Source: Alphaproteobacteria bacterium
Lineage (GTDB): Bacteria; Pseudomonadota; Alphaproteobacteria; Micavibrionales; UBA2020
Direction of reading: 5' to 3'
DNA: 11,502 bases
NCBI GenBank assembly: GCA_018971405.1
Contig: JAGXAX010000022.1
Coordinates: 1-11,502 of the forward strand
The notes beneath the pieces are model-generated. The model was not told where the DNA came from. It did no database searches and saw only the letters and a program-made list of their open reading frames with translations. The position numbers and the translations under genes are program-made. Shown in pieces: positions 1 through 6,177 of this stretch; the first letter of the stretch is position 1, and each line of letters opens with the position of its first letter.

Positions 1-1605
1 CAATACGATTTCGCGGTCGGTGCGGTGGCGGCCAACGCGGCGCGCATGCGCGCGCTGGCCGTCGAGGCGCACGGGCGCTGGGGCGCGGCGCTGGTCGCGT
101 TTCCGGAGCTCGCGCTCTGCGGCTATCCGCCGGAGGATCTGCTGCTGCGCCCGAGCTTTCTCGAAGCCTGCGCCCACGAACTGGACGCGCTGGCGGCCGG
201 GCTTGCCGGCGTCGCGGCGGTGGTCGGGCATCCGCATGCGCTGGGCGAGGTGTACAACGCGCTCAGCCTGCTCGATGGCGGTCGCGTTTCCAGCACTTAC
301 CACAAGCAGGCCCTGCCCAATTACACGGTGTTCGACGAGAAGCGCTACTTCCGCCCCGGCCACGGTACGCTCGTGGTGTCGATCCGGGGCGTGCGCATCG
401 GCCTGCTGATTTGCGAGGACATCTGGCAGCCGGAGCCCGCCGCGCATGCGGCCCGCGCCGGCGCCGAACTGCTGCTGGTGATCAATGCCTCGCCGTATGA
501 CGTGTTGCAGGCGGCGGCACGCGAGCAGGTTCTGGCTCAGCGTGCGCGCGAGAACGGTATCGCCATTGCCTATGTCAATCTGGTCGCGGGTCAGGATGAC
601 CTGCTGTTCGACGGCGGCTCGCTGCTGGTGCAGTCCGACGGCAGCATCGCGGCGCGCGCACCGGCTTTCGTCGAGACGCTGCTCGACTGCGCGTACGACA
701 CCGACACGCGGCGCCTCAGCGCGCTCGAATGGCCGGCGCCAGACGCGACCGGCACCGCGGCCACGCTTTATGCCGGGCTGGTGCGTGGCGTGCGCGACTA
801 CGTGCGCAAGAACGGCTTTCGCAGCGTGCTGCTGGGGCTTTCCGGCGGCATCGATTCGGCGCTGACGCTGGCGATCGCGGTCGATGCGCTGGGTGCCGAT
901 TGCGTCCACGCGGTGATGCTGCCCTCGCGCCACACCTCCGCGCTGTCGCTGCGCGAGGCCGAGGCGCAGGCGCGAGGACTGGGTGTCGATTATCAGGAGC
1001 TGCCGATCGAGCCGGCCTACCGTGCGTTCAGCGGCGCGCTGGCGCCGGCGTTCGCGGGTCGCGCGCCCGATGCGACCGAGGAGAATCTGCAGTCGCGCTG
1101 CCGAGGCGTGATGCTGATGGCGCTCAGCAACAAGTTCGGACACCTGTTGCTGAGCACCGGCAACAAGAGCGAGATGGCGGTCGGCTACGCCACGCTCTAC
1201 GGCGACATGTGCGGCGGCTACAACGTGCTGAAGGACGTCTACAAGATGACGGTATTCGGGCTCGCCCGCTGGCGCAACGGACAATCGCCTGTCATCCCCG
1301 AACGCATCATCACCAAACCGCCCTCGGCGGAGCTGCGCCCGGACCAGAAGGACGAAGACAGCCTCCCGCCCTACAAAGACCTCGACGATATCCTCCATTG
1401 CATGATCGAGGAGGAAATGAACGTCAGCGACATCACCGCGCGCGGGCACAGCCTCGAAACCGTCAACCGCGTGTGGAAACTGCTCGACCGCGCGGAATAC
1501 AAGCGCCGCCAGGCCTGCCCCGGCGTAAAGATCAGCCGCAAGGCTTTCGGCCGCGACCGGCGCTACCCGATCGTCAACAAGTTCACCGACATCGCGACGA
1601 AATGA
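1..1605 (+). CDS. nadE: Glutamine-dependent NAD+ synthetase, 5'-truncated by the window edge
   Basis: NadE catalyses the last step of NAD+ synthesis: it amidates deamido-NAD+ in the cytoplasm using ATP and glutamine-derived ammonia. The frame is open from base 1, where it reads QYDFAVGAVAANAARM. This matches the start of the family after its first few residues, so only about 10 residues are missing; the GTG at 25 is internal. 534 residues are present. The N-terminal nitrilase-type glutaminase domain has its triad as Glu36 (FPELALCGYPPEDLL), Lys102 (YHKQALPNY) and Cys138 (LLICEDIW). The C-terminal synthetase domain has the ATP-binding SGGIDS at 281-286 and NKSEMAVGYATLYGDM further on. It ends with the family's usual RRYPIVNKF. 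Its TGA abuts the stop codon of the convergent gene with no gap. Codon use and protein style change near base 1190 (see findings). Function is certain; integrity as a single lineage is not. Confidence 0.96.
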   Translation, partial: QYDFAVGAVAANAARMRALAVEAHGRWGAALVAFPELALCGYPPEDLLLRPSFLEACAHELDALAAGLAGVAAVVGHPHALGEVYNALSLLDGGRVSSTYHKQALPNYTVFDEKRYFRPGHGTLVVSIRGVRIGLLICEDIWQPEPAAHAARAGAELLLVINASPYDVLQAAAREQVLAQRARENGIAIAYVNLVAGQDDLLFDGGSLLVQSDGSIAARAPAFVETLLDCAYDTDTRRLSALEWPAPDATGTAATLYAGLVRGVRDYVRKNGFRSVLLGLSGGIDSALTLAIAVDALGADCVHAVMLPSRHTSALSLREAEAQARGLGVDYQELPIEPAYRAFSGALAPAFAGRAPDATEENLQSRCRGVMLMALSNKFGHLLLSTGNKSEMAVGYATLYGDMCGGYNVLKDVYKMTVFGLARWRNGQSPVIPERIITKPPSAELRPDQKDEDSLPPYKDLDDILHCMIEEEMNVSDITARGHSLETVNRVWKLLDRAEYKRRQACPGVKISRKAFGRDRRYPIVNKFTDIATK

Positions 1606-2629: not shown

Positions 2630-3967
2630 ATGACCGTCGCTGTCCGTTTCGCCCCCAGCCCCACCGGCATATTGCACGTCGGCAGCGCCCGCACGGCGCT
2701 GATCGTCTGGCTGTTCGCGCGCAAGCACAAGGGCACGTTCCTGCTGCGCATCGACGACACCGACCTCGCCCGCTCGACGGAGGAAAACGTCGAGGACATC
2801 AAGTCCGGCCTCACGTGGCTCGGGCTCGACTGGGACGCCTTCGCCCGCCAGCGCGACCGCAACGCGATTTACGACCGCAACATCCAGAAGCTCAAGGACA
2901 TCGGCCGCCTCTACCCCTGCTACGAGACGGAGGAAGAACTGGCGCTGATGCGCAAGACCCTCCTGCAGCAAAAACGCCCGCCGATCTACGACCGCGCGGC
3001 GCTTCATCTCACCGACACGCAGAAGGCGGCATTCGAGGCGCAGGGCCGCAAGCCGCACTGGCGCTTCAAGCTCGAGCACAAGCCGATCGTCTGGGACGAC
3101 CTCGTGCGCGGGCGCGTGGAATTCCACGGCGAAACAATGTCAGACCCCGTGCTGGTGCGCGAGGACGGCCGCCCGCTCTACCACATCTGCTCGGTGATCG
3201 ACGACATCGACTTTAAAATCACCCACATCGTGCGCGGCGAAGACCATGTGAGCAATTCCGCTTCCCACATCCAGATGTTCGAAGCACTGGGCGCGAAGCC
3301 GCCGCAACTCGCGCACGTCACGCTGCTCGGCGACATGGCGGGCGGCAAGCTTTCCAAGCGCAAAGGCTCGCTGGGCATCAAATCGCTGGCAGAAGAAGTC
3401 GGCATCGAGAAGATGGCGCTCATCAGCCTCATCGCCCGCATCGGCACCTCCGATCCGATTGAACCTCTGATGACGATGGACGAAGTGATCGGAAGTTTCG
3501 ATTTCTCCAAATATTCGCGCAACCTGCCGAAATTCGACGAGGAAGAGCTTTATCGCCTGAACGCGAAAATTTTGCACAGGACGGAATTCAAGGACGTGAA
3601 GGAGCGCCTTGAAAAAATGGGCCTCGTCGGCATCGACGAGGATTTCTGGAACATCGTCCGCCCGAATCTCGAACTGCTGCCGGACGTGAAAGACTGGTGG
3701 CACGTCGCCAAGGGCCCCGTCGAGCCCGTGATCGAAGACGCGGACTTCGCGAAAGCCGCCGCCGCGCTGCTGCCCGCCGACCCGTGGGACAACACCACGT
3801 GGGACAAATGGGTGAACGCCGTCAAAACCGAAACCGGCCGCAAGGGCAAGAACCTCTTCATGCCGCTGCGCCAGGCCATCACGGGGCAGGATCACGGGCC
3901 GGAACTGAAGGAACTGCTGCCGCTCATCGGCCGCCAGCGCGTGCTGGAACGGCTGAAAGCGGCTTAA
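2630..3967 (+). CDS. gltX: Glutamyl-tRNA synthetase
   Basis: GltX charges tRNA(Glu) with glutamate using ATP, in the cytoplasm. The class I catalytic core is complete: RFAPSPTGILHVGSART near the N-terminus carries the HIGH-type motif as HVGS (16-19), LLRIDDTD follows, and KLSKRKGS (from residue 240) is the KMSKS-type loop. The C-terminal anticodon-binding region ends in GRKGKNLFMPLRQAITGQDHG. At 445 aa it is of the shorter type common in alphaproteobacteria, many of which carry two GltX copies, one of which may charge tRNA(Gln) for later amidation; I cannot tell which this is. I chose ATG 2630 because AAGGA (2616-2620) lies 9 nt upstream and the protein then starts MTVAVRFAPSPTG as usual. An in-frame GTG at 2600 lacks a ribosome binding site. 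trmJ follows after 7 nt. Confidence 0.97.
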   Translation: MTVAVRFAPSPTGILHVGSARTALIVWLFARKHKGTFLLRIDDTDLARSTEENVEDIKSGLTWLGLDWDAFARQRDRNAIYDRNIQKLKDIGRLYPCYETEEELALMRKTLLQQKRPPIYDRAALHLTDTQKAAFEAQGRKPHWRFKLEHKPIVWDDLVRGRVEFHGETMSDPVLVREDGRPLYHICSVIDDIDFKITHIVRGEDHVSNSASHIQMFEALGAKPPQLAHVTLLGDMAGGKLSKRKGSLGIKSLAEEVGIEKMALISLIARIGTSDPIEPLMTMDEVIGSFDFSKYSRNLPKFDEEELYRLNAKILHRTEFKDVKERLEKMGLVGIDEDFWNIVRPNLELLPDVKDWWHVAKGPVEPVIEDADFAKAAAALLPADPWDNTTWDKWVNAVKTETGRKGKNLFMPLRQAITGQDHGPELKELLPLIGRQRVLERLKAA

Positions 3968-3974
3968 AAAGCCG
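3960..3974 (+). repeat. Hairpin bridging the gltX stop and trmJ start
   Basis: CGGCTT-AAA-AAGCCG (3960-3974) is a perfect 6-bp inverted repeat with an AAA loop. It contains the gltX TAA and ends at the base before the trmJ ATG. No Shine-Dalgarno sequence is visible for trmJ. The hairpin has no following T-run, so it is not a terminator; it may couple trmJ translation to that of gltX. Confidence 0.6.
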
Positions 3975-4778
3975 ATGGCCGGAACGGACTCCACCGCAAA
4001 AAAGACCGGCGCCGCGGCGATCAACGCCCCCGCGGTCATCCTCGTCAAGCCGCAACTGGGCGAGAACATCGGCATGTGCGCCCGCGCGATGCTCAACTGC
4101 GCGGTGACGGACTTGCGCCTCGTCGCGCCGCGCGACGGCTGGCCGAACCCTGCCGCCGCGGCCGCAGCCTCGGGCGCAACGGAACTCCTCGACAACGCGA
4201 AAGTCTTTGACACGACGCAGGAGGCCGTCGCCGACCTCACGTACGTTCTGGCAACGACGGCGCGTGGACGCGGCATGGTCAAGGACATTCTCGACCCGCA
4301 CGCGGCGGCGCGGGAAATTCACAAACACAACAGCGCGAACGCGGAACAAAAATGCGGCATCCTTTTCGGCTGCGAGCGCGCGGGGCTGGACAACGACGAC
4401 ATCGCGCTCGCCAACGCCATTTTGAGCATCCCGCTCAATCCCGGCTTCACCTCGCTCAACCTCGCGCAGGCGGTGCTGCTGGTGTGTTTTTCGTGGCTGT
4501 CGGCGGAAAACCCCTTCAAGCCCGCCGCCGCGCCCGAAGCGCCCGCCGCGGCGGAACAGCAAAACGACGCCCCCGCGTCACAAGCGGAAATCGAAACGCT
4601 CCTCAAACACTTGGAAAGCCAGCTGGAACTGAACAATTTCTTCCGCAGCGCGGAGCAGAAGCCCACTTTGCTGCGCAATATCCGCAATTTCTTCTTCCGC
4701 TCTGCGCCCACGCGTCAGGACGTGCGCACGCTGCACGGCATCTTCAAGTGCCTGACCGGCAACCGCGACTGGAAATGA
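3975..4778 (+). CDS. trmJ: tRNA (cytidine/uridine-2'-O-)-methyltransferase, TrmJ type
   Basis: A SPOUT-class RNA methyltransferase of the TrmH/TrmJ group. The family transfers a methyl group from S-adenosylmethionine to the 2'-OH of a tRNA nucleotide; TrmJ does so at position 32. The three knot motifs are present: motif 1 PQLGENIGMCARAM (26-39, with Asn31 and Arg37), motif 2 ILFGCERAGLDNDD (129-142), and motif 3 PLNPGFTSLNLAQAV (153-167). A linker rich in Ala and Pro (about 180-205) leads to the alpha-helical C-terminal extension LLKHLESQLELNNFF...LHGIFKCL typical of TrmJ. E. coli TrmJ has Arg where this protein has Cys133 in motif 2. The ATG at 3975 is the only possible start, since the frame is closed by TGA at 3954. 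Operon with gltX, 7-nt gap, no visible ribosome binding site. The exact modified position is inferred. Confidence 0.9.
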   Translation: MAGTDSTAKKTGAAAINAPAVILVKPQLGENIGMCARAMLNCAVTDLRLVAPRDGWPNPAAAAAASGATELLDNAKVFDTTQEAVADLTYVLATTARGRGMVKDILDPHAAAREIHKHNSANAEQKCGILFGCERAGLDNDDIALANAILSIPLNPGFTSLNLAQAVLLVCFSWLSAENPFKPAAAPEAPAAAEQQNDAPASQAEIETLLKHLESQLELNNFFRSAEQKPTLLRNIRNFFFRSAPTRQDVRTLHGIFKCLTGNRDWK

Positions 4779-4781
4779 CCC

Positions 4782-5540
4782 TTACGGCGCGCCCGGCTTC
4801 GGGCCGCCTTTTTTGGCGCTGTCCCTGGCCTTTTCTTCCGGCGTTTTCAGCACATCGACCAGCTTCTTATATTCTTTTTTCTTCGTATCCGTCCTGCCGG
4901 CCGTTTCTTCCGCGGCGGCGGCGGCTTCCTGCGCCTTTTTCAGGGCGGCGGCTTCTTCCTCCTGCGCCACGACGTGCTTCGCCGCGGCATCGGCGAACAC
5001 CCGCGCAAGGCTGATGTCCTTCATGATCTCGCCGTGCAGCGGCGATTTGGAGATTTCCGGCACATGCGCCGCCACGGTCTCCTCCATCAGGAGCCTGACG
5101 GCCACGCCCTTGCCGGCCAGATAGAGGATATGGCTTTTGGCGTCTTGCGCGAGCCTCTCGCTGACGGATTTCCGGCGCGCATGCTTTACGATGTCGCCCG
5201 CGATATCGCCGCCGAAGAAGATCGCAAGGCCTGCCCAGGCGATGGGCCCGTGAAGCGCCACCAGCGCGGCCAATCCCGCGCCCTCGATCGGCGACGACAC
5301 GAAGGAGCCCGCGCGGGAGCCTTTTTTGGCCGCCTCTTTCGAGATGGCCCGCTGCTCGGCCCGTATCATGTCGTTGAGCGCGTCGCCGATCTGCCGCAAG
5401 GCAATGATTTTTTCCGCCGGATCGGTCACGGCCTCCGCGGCCTTGACAAGCGCCTCGACGCGCTGCTCGTCCACGGCCCAGTCGGCTTCGCGCTTTTTCT
5501 TTTCCGCGTCGCCTTTCTTTTTGAACGGGTTGAGGTTCAC
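4782..5540 (-). CDS. Unrecognised protein with a central hydrophobic segment, paralogue A of a tandem pair
   Basis: A 252-aa protein of no family I recognise, clearly paralogous to its upstream neighbour. Both share the N-terminus NLNPFKK, a helical block (here DEQRVEALVKAAEAVTDPAE, then KIIALRQIGDA), a hydrophobic segment around 88-116 containing GPIAWAGLAIFFGG, the block SPLHGEIMKDISLARVFADAAAKH, and a C-terminal GPKP. Copy A carries an extra charged, alanine-rich, probably coiled-coil stretch (192-242) absent from copy B. The start is GTG at 5540: AAGGA lies just upstream, and the paralogue begins at the same point with ATG. The frame remains open further upstream, but that extension is a run of Arg and Pro codons read from the neighbour's 3' end. 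No signal peptide is seen. Likely membrane-associated with helical cytoplasmic flanks. The gap to copy B is 13 nt, so they form one operon. Confidence 0.8.
   Translation of the reverse strand: MNLNPFKKKGDAEKKKREADWAVDEQRVEALVKAAEAVTDPAEKIIALRQIGDALNDMIRAEQRAISKEAAKKGSRAGSFVSSPIEGAGLAALVALHGPIAWAGLAIFFGGDIAGDIVKHARRKSVSERLAQDAKSHILYLAGKGVAVRLLMEETVAAHVPEISKSPLHGEIMKDISLARVFADAAAKHVVAQEEEAAALKKAQEAAAAAEETAGRTDTKKKEYKKLVDVLKTPEEKARDSAKKGGPKPGAP
4786..4814 (+). terminator. Intrinsic terminator of gltX-trmJ
   Basis: GGCG(C)GCCCG (4786-4795) pairs with CGGGCCGCC (4800-4808) across the loop GCTT, giving 9 bp with one bulged C, followed by six T (4809-4814). It begins 8 nt after the trmJ stop. It lies entirely within the 3' coding end of the convergent gene (4782-5540), where the other strand encodes the GGPKPGA tail. 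Confidence 0.8.
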
Positions 5541-5553
5541 GATCTTTTCCTTT

Positions 5554-6177
5554 TTATTGCGCGGCAGGCTTCGGCCCCGACTTCGCCTGCGCCGCGGGAG
5601 CGGGAGCGGCGTCTTTCTCCGTCTTCGCCGCGGCTGCGGCGAACGCCGCCGCAAGGCCCGCGTCCTTCATGATCTCGCCGCGGAGCGGGGATTGCGCGAT
5701 CTCCGTCGCATGCCGCGCCACGATGTCTTTCATCATGCCATCGACGGCGTTTGCCCTGCCGCGCAGATATTGGAGATGGCTTGCACAAACCTTCTCCAGG
5801 TTCTTTTGCTCACGCCGCGTCTGCACCTTCTCGACAAGAAATCCTAAGATAATCCCGCCATACGCAAGCCCCGCGCCCGCAAAGGCCAGCGGGCCCGAAG
5901 CCACCATCAGCGCCACGGCGCCGACCGCGATCGTGGACAGCGCGACGGCGAAGGCGGCTTCATCCCCGCGTCTTCCCGCCTCGTCCATGACGGCCTTCCG
6001 GCTACTGCCGATCATGCCGCCGAACGCATCGCGCGCCCGCCGCAGGGCGATGATCTTTTCCGCCGGATCGGCCACGGTCTCTGCGGCCCTGACAAGTTCA
6101 TCGGCGCGCTGCCTGTCGGCGGCAAAGTCAAAGGCCGTTTCCTGTTTTTGCTCTTTCTTGAACGGATTGAGATTCAT
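5554..6177 (-). CDS. Unrecognised protein with a central hydrophobic segment, paralogue B of a tandem pair
   Basis: A 207-aa protein of unknown family, first gene of the tandem pair. It starts MNLNPFKKEQKQE, and the ATG is preceded by AAAGGA. A helical block with DPAEKIIALRRARDAFGGMI (38-56) is nearly shared with copy A. A long hydrophobic stretch (about 75-115: AFAVALSTIAVGAVALMVASG, then GPLAFAGAGLAYGGIILGF) could cross the membrane twice as a hairpin. The block SPLRGEIMKDAGLAAAFAAAAAK (163-185) and the tail SGPKPAAQ close the protein. Compared with copy A the hydrophobic region is longer and the C-terminal extension shorter. It has its own promoter and sits downstream of the rpsD terminator, so it is not simply in the rpsD operon. 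The role is unknown; a membrane-anchored helical protein is all that the sequence supports. Confidence 0.82.
   Translation of the reverse strand: MNLNPFKKEQKQETAFDFAADRQRADELVRAAETVADPAEKIIALRRARDAFGGMIGSSRKAVMDEAGRRGDEAAFAVALSTIAVGAVALMVASGPLAFAGAGLAYGGIILGFLVEKVQTRREQKNLEKVCASHLQYLRGRANAVDGMMKDIVARHATEIAQSPLRGEIMKDAGLAAAFAAAAAKTEKDAAPAPAAQAKSGPKPAAQ

Follow-up and report, generated by a model that had tools for sequence, protein, structure and literature searches.

Chimeric-contig misassembly is described, in the GUNC paper's account of MAG errors, as known and relatively rare (PMC8201837). For Illumina reads, the figures given in one benchmark are 22.15 chimeric contigs per genome for megahit and 2.63 for SPAdes (PMC11261854). 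The contig described here, C325, agrees with chimeric contigs as defined in GUNC's account (PMC8201837) in holding sequence from two sources, but differs in that its break lies within a single gene, whose frame stays open and encodes a plausible hybrid protein. We conclude that this hybrid nadE is in all likelihood a chimeric join at a contig end, made in assembly or in library preparation.

The window, that is, the whole stretch of DNA analysed, is the complete contig C325 (11,502 bases). It belongs to an assembly totalling 1,829,189 bases over 364 contigs, with an estimated completeness of 88.63% and an estimated contamination of 1.59%. From base 1 the contig lies within the open nadE frame, which stops at 1605, a single frame of 534 amino acids in which both domains expected of NadE, CN_hydrolase and NAD_synthase, are present. 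Other genes of the contig include gltX, a SpoU-family methylase gene, rpsD, fliX and flgI. Ten of the 120 GltX relatives listed carry names, namely 8 Alphaproteobacteria, 1 Micavibrio and 1 Patescibacteria. From the raw sequence, the earlier note had proposed that nadE is a mosaic with a junction near 1140-1260, gammaproteobacterial in its 5' part and alphaproteobacterial in its 3' part.

One genome per species was scanned. In this set, residues 1-396 were 100% identical to a gene product of the MAG "Lysobacteraceae bacterium isolate REEB27" (JAGWPB010000024.1, locus L073, 38,519 bases). A literature search on REEB27 did not identify the originating study; the naming of its contigs looks like that of the IDBA assembler. 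The features on which the argument turns are as follows.

1..1177, + strand: foreign segment, nadE of Lysobacteraceae (Gammaproteobacteria), starting 27 bases into the intact REEB27 gene
1178..1196, + strand: junction interval, between the last REEB27-specific site (1177) and the first relative-specific site (1197)
1197..1605, + strand: native 3' part, alphaproteobacterial nadE through the stop codon, assigned by amino acid identity to relatives
2630..4778, + strand: gltX and a trmJ-like gene (SpoU methylase family), native downstream neighbours, in the same order after nadE in 6/6 relatives examined
C197:2788-3534: native-type nadE 5' half of 249 codons, running off the contig end, behind a class II DAHP synthase-family gene

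At the DNA level, window 1-1196 aligned to JAGWPB010000024.1 with 2 mismatches (252 and 441). Past 1196 the alignment showed 20 mismatches within 83 bases and then ended. Residues 1-398 were identical to REEB27 NadE at 398/398 positions, and were 38-42% identical to the proteins of G002, G003, G004, G005, G006 and G008. The same residues show the likeness to Lysobacteraceae and Rhodanobacteraceae more widely, with 69-75% identity to Luteibacter, Mizugakiibacter, Dyella and Rhodanobacter (L077, L080, L089, L107), whereas residues 399-534 reach only 51-55% to REEB27 and these four. The nadE of REEB27 is intact and complete (551 amino acids), and the C-terminal part of its product, judged by eye, resembles the related proteins P0002-P0007. 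For these two reasons REEB27 is not the chimera, and one part of C325 is near-identical to an organism whose own locus is intact. A query of 10.9 kb around the REEB27 nadE (40 of 285 candidates scored) showed no further REEB27 sequence in the bin. The other 10 of the 11 bin matches listed for this query were 65-83% identical, the one at 83% being 42 bases of the C197 nadE.

The 3' part has other closest relatives. Residues 399-534 were 92% identical to the same-genus genome G003, 82% to G004, 85% to G005 and 76-78% to G001, G002, G006 and G008, vs. 51% to REEB27 and 51-61% across ten gammaproteobacterial loci. A second program, which counts gaps differently, gave 80-92% to the relatives and 81-92% to G001-G006, with G004 aligned in two pieces. 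Compared with NadE of its own genus (G001-G006), the window is thus alike in residues 399-534 (76-92%) and in the gltX that follows nadE in the five loci examined (G002-G006), but differs in residues 1-398 (38-44%, with G001 compared over residues 142-398 only). The suggestion that the rest of the window resembles the 3' part held for the downstream genes compared with same-genus genomes: gltX was 84-95% identical in amino acids (five genomes), the trmJ-like gene 66-90% (five) and rpsD 85-93% (three). Of the results that the earlier note said would refute its reading, neither turned up: the two halves have different closest relatives, and the hybrid is listed only once, its 90% cluster having one member, from one contig.

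Downstream of nadE, two small ORFs without a Pfam match (165 and 110 amino acids; 1606-2454, - strand) lie between nadE and gltX; for the first, G003 carries a relative at 53% (L065 6245-6703). The nadE-gltX interval is about 1.0 kb long in the window, whereas G004 has 4.2 kb there. Two adjoining genes for related proteins (4782-6177, - strand), 43% identical, are found between the trmJ-like gene and rpsD. G003 has four tandem ORFs at the corresponding place (L065 9073-12035, - strand), each 27-41% identical to the window pair, and together they look like a lineage-specific tandem family to which no function is assigned.

The junction was located with informative sites, defined as sites at which the relatives G003, G004 and G005 agree with one another and REEB27 differs (n = 510); 5 further sites that matched neither type were excluded from the counts. 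Up to 1177 the window was REEB27-type at 395/395 sites. After 1177 it was relative-type at 109/115 and REEB27-type at the remaining 6. The maximum chi-squared value was 476, with the best split between 1177 and 1197, and none of 2000 permutations reached it (largest value 21.4). In steps of 50 residues, identity to REEB27 was 50/50 in all eight steps to residue 400, then 30/50, 23/50 and 17/29; identity to G003 was 15-30 of 48-50 in the first eight, then 44/48, 45/50 and 34/34. Position 1177 is T in all six aligned relatives and G in the window and REEB27. Since G005 equals the window over 1178-1223, the run common to G005 and REEB27 is 1178-1196. Should the native sequence resemble G005, the real shared run would be 19 nt long.

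By homology, then, the two origins and the junction interval are established. The gene is a mosaic, as the earlier note had claimed, and that reader had both the taxonomy of the two parts (by protein identities) and the position of the break right: the switch at 1178-1196 falls inside the proposed range and in the most conserved stretch of the gene. Compared separately, the two halves have different closest relatives, and the change between them is sharp, as in a chimeric contig.

The codon argument that had led to this proposal fared less evenly. Nearly all of its counts were right: leucine in 829-1182 is CTG 15, CTC 1, other 2; from 1195 to the stop leucine is CTC 7, CTG 3 and glutamate GAG 3, GAA 5; and AAA lysine codons are confined to the last part (1315, 1375, 1477 and 1600). 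For glutamate in 829-1182 the absence of GAA stood, but we counted GAG 7, not 8. The choice of segment was selective, however, and the argument weakens over the full 5' part. The 53 leucine codons in 1-1194 are CTG 38, CTC 10 and other 5, and 9 of the 10 CTC codons lie in 1-828. Three Fisher tests of the 5' vs. the 3' part, unadjusted, gave p = 0.004 for CTG/CTC, p = 0.067 for GAG/GAA and p = 0.24 for AAG/AAA; CTG/CTC alone is clearly significant. GC3 did not shift (0.857 in the 5' part, 0.869 in the 3' part) and was uninformative. Codon usage was dropped as the main proof, being too weak across the entire 5' part.

A 483-amino-acid reverse open frame lies over nadE (1-1449, - strand). Long reverse frames likewise lie over the nadE of C197 and of G003, and the frame therefore probably comes about as a side effect of GC-rich coding sequence.

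NadE matches in the bin numbered three, and a long NadE-like stretch was present in the window and in C197 only. The match on C340 (26% over residues 81-229, E = 7e-5) was taken as another nitrilase-family protein. On C197 (3534 bp) the nadE fragment has the CN_hydrolase domain. Its amino acid identity is 83% with each of G003, G004 and G005; four other relatives reach 67-74%, and the ten gammaproteobacterial loci 34-39%. In five of the six relatives examined (G002, G004, G005, G006 and G008), a single contig carries DAHP synthase followed by nadE, gltX and then the trmJ-like gene, with nadE whole and 1.6-4.2 kb before gltX; G001 was left out of this count because its nadE is split over two contigs. 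In the sixth, G003 (L065 1016-3514), glnD stands upstream of nadE, where G004 and G005 (L066 and L068 compared) have DAHP synthase. This difference is a local rearrangement within the genus.

Bases 1-3533 of C197 aligned to G004 at 83.2% nucleotide identity, reaching the middle of the G004 nadE, and C325 1685-4778 aligned further downstream in that stretch of G004, with 82.4% identity. The two contigs occupy different, non-overlapping parts of that locus. The longest blocks against G005 were 82.8% (C197) and 81.9% (C325) identical. Shorter blocks varied more (66-84%). In G004 coordinates, 474 bases separate the end of C197 from window base 1195, and some 460-475 bases of native nadE are missing; this middle part was not found. 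C197 and C325 look like the left and right parts of a single ordinary locus, C325 carrying a foreign extension, and the organism's own version of the displaced part lies elsewhere in the bin beside its usual neighbour. An intact nadE of the same species was absent among the 240 NadE proteins listed, where the best match to the C197 fragment was 83%. A GltX cluster (8 members, 2 contigs) was considered as proof that the species had been assembled elsewhere without the hybrid. We set this aside, as the GltX proteins of G003, G004 and parts of G005 are themselves more than 90% identical and may account for the cluster.

We favour a mis-join, as one of the two explanations named beforehand, because the foreign part sits at a contig end (the window being all of C325) and the organism's own nadE 5' half, with its usual upstream neighbour, sits at the end of another contig. 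The gene order shared by most relatives and the hybrid's standing alone in its 90% cluster point the same way. The last part of nadE, from 1197 or perhaps 1178, and everything downstream would be native, and about 1.2 kb of a Lysobacteraceae nadE would have been joined onto the native gene in a conserved stretch. The near identity to REEB27 suggests that both organisms were present in one sample. The assembler, or PCR in library preparation, may then have joined them via a short common stretch, of 19 nt if the native gene is like G005. Some observations run counter to this reading. Upstream order is not invariant, G003 having glnD and not DAHP synthase; the 240 listed NadE proteins include no intact one from this species; and a 19-nt run, as suggested by G005, is short for an assembler. 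The frame stays open over the junction, as a working hybrid would require; an open frame is expected in any case, because joining aligned homologues in a conserved stretch preserves it.

The kept frame would equally suit a real recombinant, in which Lysobacteraceae DNA was taken up very recently and recombined into nadE, as a replacement or as an extra copy. Homologues could well recombine in such a conserved stretch, and a recent event would fit the near identity with the donor. Against this, the native-type 5' half and its upstream neighbour are still in the bin, and the foreign tract has no second native border within the contig, which begins inside the tract at base 1. We regard real recombination as very improbable and a mis-join as far more likely. 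A genuine recent hybrid carried as an extra copy beside the organism's own nadE, with DNA from a co-resident Lysobacteraceae, is just as hard to credit.

The weight given to C197 depends on its belonging to this genome. Were it a contaminant, binned here from a different species of this genus, the hybrid would be the genome's sole nadE. C197 is short and is not physically linked to C325 in these data, and its nadE fragment is at most 83% identical in amino acids to the relatives compared, where the 3' part reaches 92%. The longest blocks of C197 and C325 are, however, equally diverged from G004 (83.2 and 82.4%) and from G005 (82.8 and 81.9%), the two contigs cover separate parts of the G004 locus without overlap, and estimated contamination of the bin is 1.59%. 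Contamination of this kind has only a slight chance of being correct, and even so the place at the contig end and the near identity to a foreign gene would favour a mis-join. Simple replacement of the native gene does not fit, because its 5' half remains in the bin on C197.

A chimeric join thus remains our explanation, and the hybrid is very probably not a real feature of this organism's biology. It is a clean case of an intragenic chimera spotted from raw sequence. Joining two species within one conserved gene can produce an open, domain-complete protein in a public assembly, and entries of this kind can lead phylogenies, transfer surveys and codon-usage studies astray. The hybrid is not a new kind of thing and calls for no new function: the enzyme that the organism really has is presumably a normal glutamine-dependent NAD synthetase, as in its relatives.
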